60,986 bases of DNA, taken from positions 1 through 60,986 of the forward strand of contig NZ_FOTD01000017.1 in assembly GCF_900114465.1 (NCBI RefSeq), in the 5' to 3' direction. The notes below the pieces were generated by a model. It was not told the origin of the DNA, did no database searches, and saw only the letters and a list, made by a program, of their open reading frames with translations. Source of the stretch: Trichococcus palustris (GTDB lineage Bacteria > Bacillota > Bacilli > Lactobacillales > Aerococcaceae). Position numbers and translations under genes: made by a program. Shown one piece after another: positions 29,235 through 60,354 of this stretch. Each line of letters opens with the position of its first letter. Position 1 is the stretch's first letter.

Positions 29235-31244
29235 ATGTCTTTTATAGAACTGAAACACTTGAACAAATTTTACCCCATCAGCGGCGCAAAAGATTTCCAG
29301 GCCCTGAAGGACATCAATCTGTCTTTGGACAAAGGCGAACTGGTTTCCATCATCGGTGAATCCGGCAGCGGTAAATCGACCTTAATGAACCTGCTGGGCG
29401 GCTTGGACAGCCAGTTCTCCGGCGAAATCACCGTAGACGGCAAAAAGATGAGCACCTTTAAAGATCAGGATTTCGTAAACTACCACAAAGAAAAAATCGG
29501 CTTCGTCTTCCAAAGCTTCAATCTCGTTTCCCATCTATCCGTATTGGACAATGTGACGCTGGCCATGACGCTATCGAACGTCGACAAAAAAACCCGGAAT
29601 GAACGGGCAAAAGAAGTGCTCAAGCAGCTGGGCCTGGAAGAACAATACCACAAAAAACCGAGCCAGTTATCCGGCGGACAAAAACAACGGGTTGCGATTG
29701 CGCGCGCCTTGGTCAATGACCCAGATATCATCATCGCGGACGAACCGACCGGTGCCTTGGATTCGCAGACAACCGACCAAGTGTTGGACATCATTCAAGA
29801 GATCGCGAAAACCGGCAAACTGGTCATCATGGTTACCCATTCGGAAAAAGTGGCTGCCCGTTCGACCCGTGTCGTGACCATCGACGACGGGAAAATCATC
29901 GGGGACGTCCGTCAAGGCGAACTGCAGACACACGAAAATACCTTTGGATTGGAGAAAAAAGCCAAAAGTAAAAACCTTTCCTTCTTCGCAGCTATACGAT
30001 TGGCTCTTCTGAACATGAAAGAGAAACTGGGTCGGAACATCCTGATTGCTTTAGGTGGCAGCATCGGCATCATGAGCGTCATCGTGATGCTCTCGCTCGG
30101 TGCAGGGGTAAATGATTACCTGACCAAAACAATGAACGCCAACGTCAACCCTTTGGTCAGTGAGGTGAAGATGCCAATTGCGAGGGGTTCCAATGCAAGT
30201 AGCAGTGTTGCTGCAGATTCTTCCGTGATGGCCACAACACCGGCCGGAACGAGGCCTTCCGGACCACCTGCCGGCGTAACCCAATCCGATCCGTTTGCGG
30301 AAGAGAATCTGCAAGAATTACGGAACATCCCGCACGTCGCCGAACTGAATTTGGCCTACACATCCTTCACCATCGGAAGCGATAACGTCATTTATGAAGG
30401 TTCAAAATATGCCTTCATGACTTTCGGGACAACTTCCGGCATGACCGATTCCAACATTCTATATGGCACATTCCCGGCTGAAGGCGAAATACTCGTAACC
30501 GAAGGCATCGCCAATCAAATGGGCGCCACTGCGGAAGAAGCCATCGGAAAAGAAGTGACTTTGAGTGTTACCATCGACGGCGAAAAACTTGAAAAAAATT
30601 ATGTGATCAGCGGCATCTACACTGCCGGCCAATCCATCGGGGCATTTGAGTCTGTCTATATATCATCTGAGTCCTTCGATCTATTGACAGCCGAAAACAA
30701 CCTGGAAGTGAAACCGAACGTCGTATACTTGGTTTCTGACGATCCAAAAAATACGCAAGCCATCAAAGATGAAGTGGCTACATTAGGTTACCGCGGCTCT
30801 TCAGCCGATATGCTTGCTTCGACCTTTACCAAGATGTTGGATATCTTCACCTACATCCTATCCGGTGTAGCCGGTATTTCCCTGTTCGTATCAGCCATCA
30901 TGATTTTGACGGTGCTGTACATTAGCGTAGTGGAACGGACACAGGAAATCGGTGTCATCAAAGCCATCGGCGGCCGCAAAAAAGATATCCGCCGCATCTT
31001 CGTATCCGAGTCCTTCCTGATCGGTCTATTCAGCGGATTATTGGGTGTGGGCATCGCCTACCTGATCACCGTTGTCGGCAATATCATCGTTCAAAATCTG
31101 TTTGATACAGCCATCCTGAACATGACACCCGCTTTCGCCATTTTCGGAATCGTAACCAGCATCATCATCAGCATGCTCTCCGGCTTGCTGCCCGCCCAAA
31201 AAGCAGCCAGCCTCGATCCAGTCGAAGCCCTACGCCACGACTAA
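29235..31244 (+). CDS. MacB-type ABC exporter, fused ATPase and permease
   Basis: The 669-residue protein has an N-terminal LolD/MacB-type ATPase (about 1-225: [36 protein letters not shown]). A first membrane segment follows near 260, then a large extracytoplasmic MacB_PCD-like domain. Three C-terminal FtsX segments (about 535-660) include [24 protein letters not shown]. The extracytoplasmic part contains a low-complexity stretch rich in Ser, Ala, Thr and Pro ([22 protein letters not shown]). MacB-type pumps work by mechanotransmission and export peptides, antibiotics or lipids in Gram-positives. GAGGAGG lies upstream of the ATG. It is controlled with the TetR gene. Its stop codon overlaps the first linker box of the tandem hairpin array. 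Confidence 0.9.
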
Positions 31245-31254
31245 AGGATACGAT

Positions 31255-31353
31255 GAATTGCGCTTAGAACGGAATCACTGGAGCACCTAGTACTAAAATC
31301 TGCGGTTTTCAGATTTAAGTACTAGGTGTGAAGTGACGTCCGTTCTGCAATTC
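31255..31353. repeat. Tandem hairpin unit 1
   Basis: P1 is GAATTGC (31255-31261) with GCAATTC (31347-31353). The bulge is GCTT. P2 is AGAACGGA (31266-31273) with TCCGTTCT (31339-31346). The apical stem pairs CACCTAGTACT (31284-31294) with AGTACTAGGTG (31318-31328), topped by AAATCTG/CAGATTT. Confidence 0.88.
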
Positions 31354-31378
31354 AGAGTTCAACTAAAACAGGATGTGA

Positions 31379-31477
31379 TGATTCGCGTTTAGATACCCGT
31401 ACGTTGGAGCGAAGCACGAAGGGAACCTCTTTTGTTCCCTACTTGCTTCGTGAAACGTTAGCGGTATCTGCGAATCA
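31379..31477. repeat. Tandem hairpin unit 2
   Basis: P1 is TGATTCGC (31379-31386) with GCGAATCA (31470-31477). The bulge is GTTT. P2 is AGATACC (31391-31397) with GGTATCT (31463-31469). The apical part pairs ACGTT/AACGT, CGAAGCA/TGCTTCG and AGGGAAC/GTTCCCT. Confidence 0.88.
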
Positions 31478-31499
31478 GAACTCACTAAACAGGATGTGA

Positions 31500-31600
31500 T
31501 AAATCCCACGGTAGAAATCGAGCACTAAGAAGACAACCACTAAACGGCCGGTTTTTGGCCGTGTGTGATTGTCAGCTTAGGCAGAGATTTCTGGGATTTA
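31500..31600. repeat. Tandem hairpin unit 3
   Basis: P1 is TAAATCCC (31500-31507) with GGGATTTA (31593-31600). The bulge is ACGGT. P2 is AGAAATC (31513-31519) with GATTTCT (31586-31592). The apical part pairs CTAAG/CTTAG, GACAACCAC/GTGATTGTC (one mismatch) and ACGGCC/GGCCGT. Confidence 0.88.
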
Positions 31601-31638
31601 GAACTCAACTAAAAGGATACAATGAATCCCGTTAAAAC

Positions 31639-31687
31639 AAAATAAAGGCAACCAGAACAGAATGACTGTCTTGGTTGTCTTTATTTT
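31639..31687. terminator. Bidirectional terminator after the tandem array
   Basis: AAAATAAAGGCAACC (31639-31653) pairs with GGTTGTCTTTATTTT (31673-31687), one mismatch. It directly follows the fourth linker box and separates two convergent genes. Confidence 0.85.
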
Positions 31688-31690
31688 GCC

Positions 31691-33094
31691 TTATTCCACT
31701 GAACGCAGCTGCAAATAAAATTCGTTTATTTGCCCAGCCAGCTCATCTTCTTGCATTTCTTTGAAGATGCTCATCAAGTTATGGATATACCTCAGAAGCC
31801 ATTCAAAGGAGTCTCTTTTGACGCTCTTCCCCGCCGCTGCTCCCCTTTCGATCTCTTTATGGAAATTAGCTATCCAATTATCTCCCAACACAATGTGGAC
31901 ACGTTGGATCTGTTCTTTAAAGAGCTTTTCCGCAGATAAGATTTCATCCTCCGCTAGCCACTCATTCCTGCCGGCGCTTCGATAATATTTAGGGATGAAT
32001 TCCTTGAAATAGGGATCGGATTGTTGCAACAGAAAAAAGGCTGCTTCATATTTCCCTTCCGTTATGTAATAATCCAGCAGATAGGAGACGAGGATATCCC
32101 GAAAATCAATCTCCAATTTGCGGATCACCAAATCCTTATAAGTATCATTGATCGGCACAATCTCAAGTTTGCTGTATAACGGCTGACGTGTTGCCCCCAA
32201 TACCAGTTCTTCCTTTTCCAACAAATCATGCGCTTCCTTTTTCGCCAATGTGTGCAGTCCGTTCGAACGAAAAATGACAAAGCGGATCCACTTCAATAAG
32301 GCCGCCTCTTCTTCCGGCAATTGCAAATCTGGATTCTCATCCAACACCGCTGTAAAATTTTCCATTTTTTGCACAGTATCAGGATATTTGAAACGCTGCC
32401 ATTGGATATAGCTGGACGGTTGCTTCTCATAAAGGAAGCTGACTAAAATCAGCTGCATCCATAATTTTTTTATATCGGAAGGCTTCTCCGTAGCCGCTAG
32501 TTGATCCCACAATAAAACCTCGACTTCTTCTTTTATAGCCAAGGGACTCCAACCGGCTCCCGAAGCCTCAAACCCGAATAATTGCACAAAGTCGATTGCT
32601 TTTCTGGCGGTTAATTTGTTCCCTTTTATTAATTTGTTTACGATAGGGGCAAGAATAAGATGGGACAATCCCATTTGATTTTTAAAGTAAGGGAAAATCA
32701 AATATTTTTCATTCACTCTTTTCCTCAAAATACCGCTATGAAGCGGCTGATGCCCCAATGGCCCTATTACAGGCGAAAAATCCTTCAATTCATATTCTCC
32801 TTCTATGAACTCCTCGTTCGCATAGCTGAAGGGATAGCCATCAGGGAAGTTTTGTTTATAGAAGAAGATATACCAATCGTGCGCTTCCTTAGCATCCAAC
32901 AGTAGGTTATTCACAGAAATGCTATTTTCAGCAAATTGTTTTGCGAACCTTTGGGCATCATTTGATAAGCGGTAAAAGTCATCTGCATGAGAGAAGTCCT
33001 GGAGTGTCTTTTCATTGACCGGGAACTTATTCGCCTTCACATAATCGTATAACGCATAGTAATATTCATAAAACAAAGCGTAATCGTCTTTCAT
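31691..33094 (-). CDS. Protein of unknown function, 467 residues
   Basis: I do not recognise this protein. It is soluble, with no signal peptide or membrane segment, and is rich in aromatic residues near the start (YALFYEYYYALYDYVK). It appears largely alpha-helical after about residue 140, with a Glu/Lys-rich C-terminus (MSIFKEMQEDELAGQINEFYLQLRS). A conserved-looking segment is SPVIGPLGHQPLHSGILRKRVNEKYLIFPYFKNQMGLSHLILAPIV. Start chosen at 33094, since GGAGGG lies 8 bp upstream; the frame is open to 33244 but without a site. It converges on the MacB-like gene, with the tandem hairpin array between. There are no informative operon partners. Confidence 0.65.
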   Translation of the reverse strand: MKDDYALFYEYYYALYDYVKANKFPVNEKTLQDFSHADDFYRLSNDAQRFAKQFAENSISVNNLLLDAKEAHDWYIFFYKQNFPDGYPFSYANEEFIEGEYELKDFSPVIGPLGHQPLHSGILRKRVNEKYLIFPYFKNQMGLSHLILAPIVNKLIKGNKLTARKAIDFVQLFGFEASGAGWSPLAIKEEVEVLLWDQLAATEKPSDIKKLWMQLILVSFLYEKQPSSYIQWQRFKYPDTVQKMENFTAVLDENPDLQLPEEEAALLKWIRFVIFRSNGLHTLAKKEAHDLLEKEELVLGATRQPLYSKLEIVPINDTYKDLVIRKLEIDFRDILVSYLLDYYITEGKYEAAFFLLQQSDPYFKEFIPKYYRSAGRNEWLAEDEILSAEKLFKEQIQRVHIVLGDNWIANFHKEIERGAAAGKSVKRDSFEWLLRYIHNLMSIFKEMQEDELAGQINEFYLQLRSVE

Positions 33095-34262
33095 CTTCCA
33101 GCCCTCCAGAGTGTAACCCCTTACAATTCTTATTTCTATTTTAACATATCGCGGATGAAACATAGGCAAATACCATTTGAATCTGAAAAAGCTATGACAT
33201 AGCATGACTAAATTGCGTAGCGCGTTATTCTTCAAAACAAGCATCCGACAAAAAAATCAGTAAAAATTCGGACAAATTTTATGCATTTCATATCAAAATA
33301 TTCGGCTAATTAATGACGTTTTCAAGTTCTGGTGCTATACTATATGCGAGGCAACATTCGGATCCTCGTAATGCAGGCAACTCATTTTTTCCATGTCATC
33401 CAACTTTTTCTGGATTTTTGTGGAGAAAACCCTGTCAGATTACTGGGAATGATTGCATTCCCCATGGCATGGCAACCGTTCGTAACGGATGTACCTTTGT
33501 CGTATCATTATATTAAAAAATTGCTTTTGTCGTTAATTTCCCCTCGAACGCTTTTTTAAAAATGTTTAACCGGCAACTGACCAGAGACTATTTTGAATCG
33601 ACTAGCTATCTGATGAACACAATCCGCAAATCAGAATGGATTCTTCCGTGAGGAAAAATCCCCAATTTTTGGGTGAAAGAAACACCGAAATCTATCCATT
33701 AAATGGGACAGCAACTCAAAATAAGCAGCGGATCCAACTGTTTGGTAAATATTGGCTTGCCCGGACCACGATTTTATTATGAAATTTATGCTTCTTCATA
33801 GAAATTTCATAAATAAATGATAAGTTACCCTTATGCTGCGGATTTCATTCCTAGCACTTCGTTTATTCCTTTTCCTGGCTTCAGCTTTCTCGCATAGCTC
33901 ATCCCTTGGCCTAAATCATTTCGTCTATGTTGCCCAAACATTGGGATGAAGCACCTGTCCTGATGCCAATTAACAATTTTCGAAAAATTGGTTTTATTAA
34001 CCGCAATAAAAGGTCGGCAATAAAATTACTTTATTTTTTATCCAGCCTATACAGGCCAACCAATATGACAGATATATTACAAAAAGAACCTATTTAGAAC
34101 AATGATTAAAATTTTATTTTTTTAAAAATTATGCTAGACAAATCTTAAAAATAGTATATTATTATTGTTATTGGCTGAGATGAAAAATATGGAATTTGAG
34201 TCAATTAATTATTAAACTGCACCATCACTCTAGCATTACACATACACGTTAGGAGGATAACT
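33095..34262. other. 1.17-kb gap without a supported gene
   Basis: This AT-rich stretch separates the unknown protein from an AraC-type gene. It contains a perfect 11-bp inverted repeat TTATGAAATTT (33777-33787) with AAATTTCATAA (33802-33812), a short GGGAAT/ATTCCC hairpin near 33445, and a CAATTTT-CG-AAAAATTG hairpin near 33975. Short ORFs at 33313-33559 have no ribosome binding sites. Close to 34150-34180 TATA-rich sequence probably holds the AraC promoter, giving that gene a long leader. Confidence 0.5.
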
Positions 34263-38723: not shown

Positions 38724-38783
38724 AAGCGCAAAAATCCCCTTTATTATGTTTTTTGTGTTCTGGGTGTGGGGATTGATCTCTGT

Positions 38784-38960
38784 AAGACCTTTCAACGTCA
38801 GCTGACGCCTGAACGGTCTCTTTTCTTTCAATCCTGTAGACTACACTTGCCTTGGGTCATCCGCCGAATCCTTCGATAAACCCAATCCTCGTCACTTCAA
38901 GAAATTGTTTCAACCGGCTTATTCCCAGCGAAACCTGCACATCCTCGAAGTCTGGCGCTA
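38784..38960 (-). ncRNA. glmS ribozyme
   Basis: The minus-strand leader carries ribozyme core elements in order: AGCGCC at the cleavage site (38959-38954), GTGCAGGTT, GACGAGG...GGGTTTATCGA, GCGGATGACCC, and the P4-type hairpin GACC...CGTCAGCTGACG...GGTC. Glucosamine-6-phosphate binding triggers cleavage and loss of the glmS message. The cut lies near 38958/38959, and the 3' limit is approximate. Confidence 0.93.
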
Positions 38961-39012
38961 TCCAAATGTTTTTCCTCTATCCTCCTATATATAAATTTTC
39001 CAGAATACATGT

Positions 39013-60002: not shown

Positions 60003-60354
60003 AAAAAAGCCTTCTCCACCACAGCCTTGCGACTATGGGGCGAAAGCTTCGCGTTACCACCCATGTTTATATAAACCTCACGATTTATATCTCAAAGAGT
60101 ACTAGGAAAGACTGCCGAAGGGCAATGATTCTGATACTCTGCAGTATATCGTCTGCGTACGTAATCAGGGTAATTATTCACCTGATCAAAAGCTCCAAGA
60201 CCATCTTCACTCTGTTATGATATGCTTCCTCTCACCCAACCAGAAGCTCTCTGCCATATCTCCCAAAGCTACTCTTCTCTTCATAGCCCCTATATCCTAT
60301 ATAGTTATCTTATTCCACTGTAATTAAATTATCATCATTATCTAATCTTGTCAA
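60003..60354 (-). ncRNA. T-box leader, predicted tRNA-Met specific, with its promoter
   Basis: Promoter TTGACA (60349-60354), 17 bp, TAATTT (60326-60331), start near 60319. The leader shows Stem I with AGAGAGCTTC and GGTTGGGTGAGAGGAAGC. The specifier strand is GAAG-ATG-GTCTTGGAGC (ATG at 60204-60202), and the T-box motif is GGGTGGTAACGCG (60062-60050). A terminator with AAGGCTTTTTT ends near 60003. ATG reads methionine, and the TGGT bulge pairs with A73 of tRNA-Met. Uncharged tRNA-Met should favour antitermination and metA expression. Confidence 0.92.

Follow-up and report, generated by a model that had tools for sequence, protein, structure and literature searches.

The window analysed here is a stretch of 60,986 nucleotides from Trichococcus palustris (contig NZ_FOTD01000017.1, forward strand), in which the gene of a MacB-type ABC exporter is followed by three self-contained units of about 120 nt, arranged head to tail, and then by a stub and a terminator-like repeat. 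MacB was the best NCBIfam match of the exporter frame, with a score below the cut-off. The features of the locus are:

29235-31244, plus strand: MacB-type ABC exporter gene, 669 aa, from the ORF list; stop codon TAA at 31242-31244
31245-31365, plus strand: unit 1, class A; 5' box 31245-31253 AGGATACGA; 3' box 31355-31365 GAGTTCAACTA
31254-31261 and 31347-31354, plus strand: P1 and P1' of unit 1, TGAATTGC/GCAATTCA
31370-31487, plus strand: unit 2, class B; 5' box 31370-31378 AGGATGTGA; 3' box 31478-31487 GAACTCACTA
31379-31386 and 31470-31477, plus strand: P1 and P1' of unit 2, TGATTCGC/GCGAATCA
31491-31611, plus strand: unit 3, class C; 5' box 31491-31499 AGGATGTGA; 3' box 31601-31611 GAACTCAACTA
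31500-31507 and 31593-31600, plus strand: P1 TAAATCCC and P1' GGGATTTA of unit 3
31614-31633, plus strand: terminal stub; 5' box AGGATACAA, one base off, and the P1 start of a fourth unit
31633-31693, plus strand: inverted repeat, putative terminator; arms 31633-31660 and 31666-31693

The first 5' box starts at the base directly after the exporter's TAA, and the inverted repeat, whose 28-nt arms are 82% complementary and whose far arm overlaps the end of a convergent ORF (31691-33244, minus strand), follows the array as a putative terminator. The original prediction had placed structured tandem units with covarying stems at this position, beginning at the exporter's stop codon and ending at a terminator, and this description holds with small corrections. 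The boxes do recur, although the 5' boxes at 31245, 31370, 31491 and 31614 give spacings of 125, 121 and 123 rather than 122, 122 and 124; the proposed P1 pairings are right in each unit, although P1 comprises 8 bp instead of 7; and the boxes, which had been taken as linkers enclosing the hairpins, pair together as a basal stem (P0), so that each unit is closed. In unit 1, AC of the 5' box pairs with GT of the 3' box. The 3' box of unit 2 is one base short, and the terminal stub is without a partner arm; a similar stub closes several other arrays, ahead of the next hairpin.

Folding of positions 31230-31660 gave −169.4 kcal/mol (z = −12.2), with none of 100 shuffles as good. The box pattern AGGATRYRATRAWT, allowing up to two mismatches, matched the window 22 times, compared with 12.7 expected matches and 20 in the largest shuffle; perfect matches numbered only four and were the boxes of the array. 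The ORF list holds no frame of at least 50 aa between 31245 and 31633. As had been anticipated for the array, Rfam 15 returned no match at 31240-31632, nothing near a gathering score over 31200-31720 under a relaxed E-value, and no match in 13 other unit-bearing loci. The Rfam scan of the window also located a glmS ribozyme (38760-38970, minus strand) and a T-box leader (60033-60293, minus strand), both ordinary features.

Selection of units by their two boxes alone, without any demand on the stems, yielded 157 distinct bodies. The unit plan comprises P0, a weak basal stem formed by the two boxes, a GA/GA motif, the 8-bp P1, a bulge of about 4 nt on the 5' side, P2, and then P3 with a variable top, often with a 3x2 GGA/GA internal loop between P2 and P3. 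P1 paired at 8/8 positions in 117 bodies and at 7/8 in 15, compared with about 13 and 19 for shuffled partners, and the 132 bodies with at least 7/8 pairs carry 38 different P1 sequences. The remaining 25 bodies, recognised by their boxes alone, have fewer than 7/8 P1 pairs, and several of these pair in a shorter or shifted register. When 37 cluster members were folded, the boxes paired together in most of them, according to the scheme AG-GAT-GT-GA-P1...P1'-GA-AC-TC-AACTA, and the GGA/GA loop appeared in the minimum-energy fold of 18. Among 105 bodies of box flavour (i), the P0 dinucleotides were GT/AC in 43, AC/GT in 37 and others in 25, while 49 bodies of flavour (ii) carried GTG/CAC (37), GCG/CGC (5) or other combinations (7). 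GA flanked P1 in 80 of 81 cases on one side and 81 of 81 on the other, when it was not demanded by the search. The unit tail reads CTA or TTA, followed by a variable base. A reading of the GA motifs as K-turns was dropped, as inspection found no 3-nt bulge beside them. With respect to strand, the predicted fold of the sense RNA is more stable than that of the antisense RNA for 145 of 157 bodies, as it is for 33 of the 37 representatives, and G.T exceeded A.C in P1 and P2 by 63 to 37 (16 to 10 in the representatives), a modest strand signal.

Covariation was scored over 36 of the 37 cluster representatives, one (L249) being left out as it starts inside a unit. Paired cells made up 84.8%, compared with 59.3% after shuffling and at most 45.8% after sliding; the covariation score was 0.676, compared with 0.224 and at most 0.195, respectively; and double changes occurred in 163 cells versus 55 in shuffles. 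None of 500 shuffles reached the observed paired percentage, number of double-change cells or covariation score, while 20 of the 500 reached the count of 16 pairs at which some double change was seen. Window unit 2 aligned with 19 other class B units showed pairing-keeping double changes at 21 of 40 predicted pairs, and 32 class C sequences showed them at 26 of 39 pairs. In the inner P0 of class C, one pair was changed on both sides in 15 of the 32 sequences and broken in none. The two outermost P0 pairs showed no covariation beyond shuffles in the 105 flavour (i) bodies, and RNAalifold paired the class B boxes in another register. These data show that the units are structured and that their stems covary. 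The original prediction had read compensatory change in the three window copies as evidence of selection and had proposed a formal covariation check; three copies alone are weak evidence, whereas the 36 divergent representatives exceed both shuffled and slid controls and make it strong.

A search for further copies of the units had been proposed, and copies were found in the same genome, in congeners and in other Lactobacillales genomes. A blastn search with the window array gave 32 matches in its own genome, itself included, and the box patterns matched 26 and 56 places there, compared with 2 and 9 for the reversed controls. The fetched stretches of this genome, which cover 159,641 bases and thus part of it, held 62 candidate units, of which 58, forming 42 arrays, were retained; the other four (C15:72028, C32:12563, C30:46230, C40:2764) were dropped as false or mis-paired. 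An exact linker match recovered 22 named stretches, 17 from Trichococcus, four titled 'Sedimentibacter sp. SX930' and one from Aerococcus kribbianus, the last with an array (five units and a stub) whose start lies 4 nt after a stop codon and whose stems are others. The SX930-titled contigs (MUZD01; L195, L197, L199, L212) look like Trichococcus DNA, and their title seems wrong.

Across 395 Lactobacillales genomes, a linker pattern without stem letters matched 25 (22 in the window's family f1, in genera g1, g8, g9 and g14, and three elsewhere) with zero control matches. The single-unit pattern matched 34 with one control match, namely 23 in f1 (g1 11, g8 8, g9 4), ten in g24, a large genus of family f4 with genomes of about 2 Mb, and one in G301, where the match is not unit-like and appears to be due to chance. 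Four of the ten g24 genomes (G128, G209, G227, G394) were read as loci and the other six were counted by pattern alone; g24 corresponds, by inference, to Streptococcus. A class-level pattern matched five of 398 genomes, all within the order, with four control matches, and none of the 359 class genomes outside the order. Unit-like sequences were also recognised by eye in families f2 (G187) and f9 (G356). The notion of a genus-restricted family rested on a pattern of one box flavour and was abandoned, as broader patterns match other genera. The family is thus present, in a patchy manner, beyond Aerococcaceae, and it is dispensable, since 361 of the 395 genomes of the order lack it at the sensitivity of the single-unit pattern. 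Among viral contigs, the flavour (i) linker pattern gave 24 matches, none with a partner box, although one of them (L335) has a chance 7-nt complement; blastn of the window array against plasmids and phages gave no match.

The position behind a stop codon is not particular to the window. An array was scored as docked when no more than 20 nt separated its start from the stop codon of a sense open frame at least 100 codons long. This held for 75 of the 102 distinct array starts whose upstream sequence sufficed, compared with 139 of 2301 random positions outside sense frames (6%). Of these 75, 67 lie between −15 and +5, the commonest gaps from stop to start being +1 (15 starts) and −2 (12 starts, with TAG overlapping AGGAT), and 27 starts lie beyond 20 nt of a stop codon. 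Docking was seen in 20 of 33 starts of the own genome, 28 of 36 at other Trichococcus loci and 27 of 33 in other genera. Since 24 of the starts belong to four orthologous sites (macB 9, groEL 6, ychF 5, gatB 4; all 24 docked), which are distinct by sequence and not independent, we also counted each site once, leaving 55 of 82 docked. For antisense frames, an edge was located no more than 20 nt upstream of the array start in 3 of 102 cases, and in 8 of 97 cases the stop of such a frame was no more than 20 nt away from the array end. Behind stop codons, the units run in sense direction, singly or head to tail. Docking in sense is shown, and the place of the units, together with the hairpins that follow them, supports the 3'-UTR position that the original prediction had put forward as one option.

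The link drawn there to a MacB-type exporter is not supported, as the host genes are ordinary and include, besides the exporter, mnmE, gatB, groEL, uvrA, ychF, rpsG, glmM, pnp and others. At locus L008 the host is gatB by NCBIfam, another host encodes a MetI-like permease (match below cut-off), and downstream of the mnmE site lies a frame in the same direction, read as mnmG. The single units of g24 lie between rpsG (NCBIfam) and a frame read as EF-G.

Turnover is shown by orthologous sites, which differ in their units at macB, groEL, gatB and ychF, and the proposed comparison among relatives accordingly found that unit number and order differ between related species. Judged by eye, units of differing classes and numbers, or failing these a remnant, follow the 3' end of macB in the own genome and 12 of 12 congeners; G005 has a remnant alone and G010 an N gap. 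At groEL, a B-C' core is common to five of the six sites read, in one of them with C' cut short, and the first C unit, which L283, L285 and L212 contain, is missing from L205 and L207. Two adjacent units in L092 are identical by eye. Flanks of further own-genome units were searched in seven congeners, about 420 nt being judged by eye: the C26 flank was matched in all seven without a unit, the C12 flank had close matches (87-90%) in three of seven, none with a unit, six loci read for the C30 flank (69-73% alike, orthology unsure) held no unit, and the C20 flank had one match at 66%. At sites without a unit, the flanks are too diverged to show a target duplication. Whole units also occur nested within the GTTTA bulge of other units (C22:45106 and C22:91480), and L358 holds a hybrid unit with mismatched arms. 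The loss and truncation of units and the occurrence of hybrids have the look of turnover that is selfish or neutral.

Several variants were observed in passing. A smaller hairpin, insert x (CTCAAACGTCACAGTGCGACGTTTGAG...), is lodged in class C units, on the 3' arm, while insert y (GCACTGTGACCG...CATGACAA) occurs in the tops of class B units and, in one case, within a 5' box; hairpin inserts inside units were found in L199, L209 and, in the own genome, at C14:88468, C16:1212, C25:6804 and C18:10774. In a class A unit at C32:81644 the segment from P2 to the top is inverted inside an unchanged P1, a hairpin-top inversion. Several flavour (ii) arrays (C12:148772, C20:13684 and C33:20641) carry a recurrent end module, CGATTAATTGTTAGGAAATGCGAA or close to it, after which comes a terminator-like hairpin. 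A GC-rich interspersed repeat resembling CTCCGGCGAAGC was seen by eye downstream of congener genes (L181, L183, L191, L211, L286).

Judged from the sequences, we give about even odds (roughly 0.5) to the reading that these units are structured RNA elements of 3' UTRs, belonging to a family that moves or duplicates, and likely protein-bound modules of mRNA tails. We infer that the RNA form is what is selected, as sense docking, the predicted stability of the sense strand and the conserved unpaired G.A motifs fit selection on RNA. Each unit would then act as an mRNA-tail module: its stems would stop 3'-to-5' decay or keep co-transcribed genes apart, and a protein would bind the conserved G.A motifs. 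Spread would proceed by duplication in tandem, by exchange from one array to another and, now and then, by insertion at new gene ends or inside other units. A protective role of this kind is stated generally for 3' stem-loops, which block 3'-5' exonucleases, in the relevant part of a review (PMC7509114), and for BOX elements at operon ends Croucher et al. suggest, in the section concerned, that 3' stem-loops hinder such enzymes (PMC3049150). Guarding alone does not explain the boxes, because a plain terminator already guards a 3' end.

The main rival to the mRNA-tail module, which we consider a serious if somewhat unlikely explanation, is a purely selfish DNA element of the MITE or REP-like kind that has no host function, whose hairpin would be recognised as folded single-stranded DNA by a recombinase or transposase, and whose docking would reflect a target preference for TA or TAA together with tolerance at gene ends. 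Nested units, unit-free sites in congeners, the first groEL unit that is present or absent, dozens of copies in the own genome and the unit tails CTA/TTA, which on inspection resemble the TA of stop codons, are all as such an element would leave them. The strong preference for the sense direction and the closeness of docking (75 of 102 starts, with an antisense stop at the array end in 8 of 97) would be harder to understand, as would the predicted stability in favour of the sense strand. Y1 transposases (PF01797) were found in 10 of 14 array-bearing genomes searched, the own genome included, yet also in five of nine genomes without pattern matches, and they are absent from the unit-bearing G065, G036, G046 and G058. 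The viral matches without any partner box (0 of 24) and the lack of a blastn match for the window array among plasmids and phages also count against a mobile element. The hairpins may be sites for a structure-recognising recombinase, as had been proposed for the array.

Unlikely to a greater degree is a stop-codon module through which the end of translation would be coupled to the fate of the mRNA. With P0 and the GA motif about 2-15 nt from the stop codon, a ribosome at termination would sit over P0 and melt it; the full fold could form only after the ribosome has left, and a protein would then be recruited. Arrays would in this case represent exchangeable switch cassettes, docked by an RNA- or translation-guided insertion that reads gene ends.

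It is rather improbable that the units are precursors of small trans-acting RNAs, cut from the mRNA tail at the boxes: their similar size, self-contained fold and tandem arrangement would suit such a role, but the tops and P3 are highly variable with no shared target seed seen by eye, and the units adjoin unrelated genes. Less credible still is an origin of the perfect arms in template switching (quasi-palindrome correction) rather than selection. This process should erase internal loops, whereas the units retain GA/GA, the bulge on one side and often GGA/GA; the first groEL units of L283 and L285 differ by the swap of a single pair; and the conservation of unpaired motifs across genera would be left unexplained, even though multi-base compensatory changes in one event and the often perfect P1 arms are what template switching would produce. 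The least probable reading, a translated or translation-coupled leader in which AGGA-N4-ATG, three codons and TAG form a mini-ORF past the stop codon, was rejected: window units 1 and 2 do read AGGA-N4-ATG with an in-frame TAG in the bulge, but the ATG joins the last A of the box to the two bases that open P1; it varies with P1 and is not conserved, being lost where P1 starts otherwise, as in window unit 3 (TAAATCCC), CAAAAAGC, GCAATCGC, GGAAAAGC and others.

Among known systems, REP and BIME elements consist of palindromic units that are often arrayed in 3' intergenic regions, and the REP/RAYT system is marked by a conserved GTAG adjoining the hairpin and by a Y1 (HUH) transposase in the genome. 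Palindromic arrays are common to both, whereas the units are without a fixed GTAG tetranucleotide. Mobilisation by RAYT or Y1 transposases as a requirement was ruled out by the four of 14 array-bearing genomes without Y1. MITEs such as RUP, as well as ERIC, are non-coding and palindromic and occur in many copies that are present or absent among relatives; the units resemble RUP and ERIC in being non-coding, palindromic and multicopy, with sites both with and without a copy, while their stems change class by class. MITEs are marked by terminal inverted repeats and target-site duplications; in the units, inverted pairing of the ends was seen in the short P0, and the diverged flanks of unit-free sites established no duplication. 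Integron attC sites are defined by an R'/R'' core, GTTRRRY, with a gene cassette between sites; on inspection the boxes showed no inverted core, and, as noted above, no ORF of at least 50 aa lies at 31245-31633.

The BOX elements of S. pneumoniae and S. suis, as far as the sections of the paper used here describe them, are likewise modular, variable in number, dispersed and structured, with some transcribed and some inserting into one another (PMC3049150). BOX modules are known by their own conserved sequences, whereas here the stems covary, the boxes pair as P0 and docking occurs in sense behind stop codons; Table 1 of that paper counts 70 BOX elements that precede one or more genes and 16 that lie between convergent ones (PMC3049150). 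The boxE and boxF elements of S. suis, which measure 115 and 133 nt (PMC3049150), are a lead towards a possible identity with the units. A predicted rpsG-fusA leader in streptococci, described in the pertinent part of its source as a terminator-type attenuator, occupies the same gene junction as the g24 single units (PMC2965389), and one member of the family could have been glimpsed before. The L17 downstream element, a 3'-UTR structured element of Lactobacillales that is tied to one gene and included in Rfam according to the relevant passage (PMC2864571), is alike in its place, whereas the units follow many genes and have no Rfam match at their positions. The sanguinis-hairpin of Streptococcus, of uncertain status and without an Rfam accession in the table of the same paper (PMC2864571), is a further lead towards a possible identity. 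No description of such a hairpin-cassette family was found in the open-licence PMC literature.

Short repeats in bacteria are commonly regarded as copies of a single palindrome whose presence at gene ends is tolerated. What sets the units apart is that their hairpin classes share only the fold, the paired boxes and the G.A motifs, with pairing kept while most stem bases change, and that their position after the stop codon is nearly fixed in several genera. The family described here permits a direct test of the idea that mobile repeats can be retained for what their RNA does when translation terminates or mRNA decays, and its units are material for a new Rfam family.
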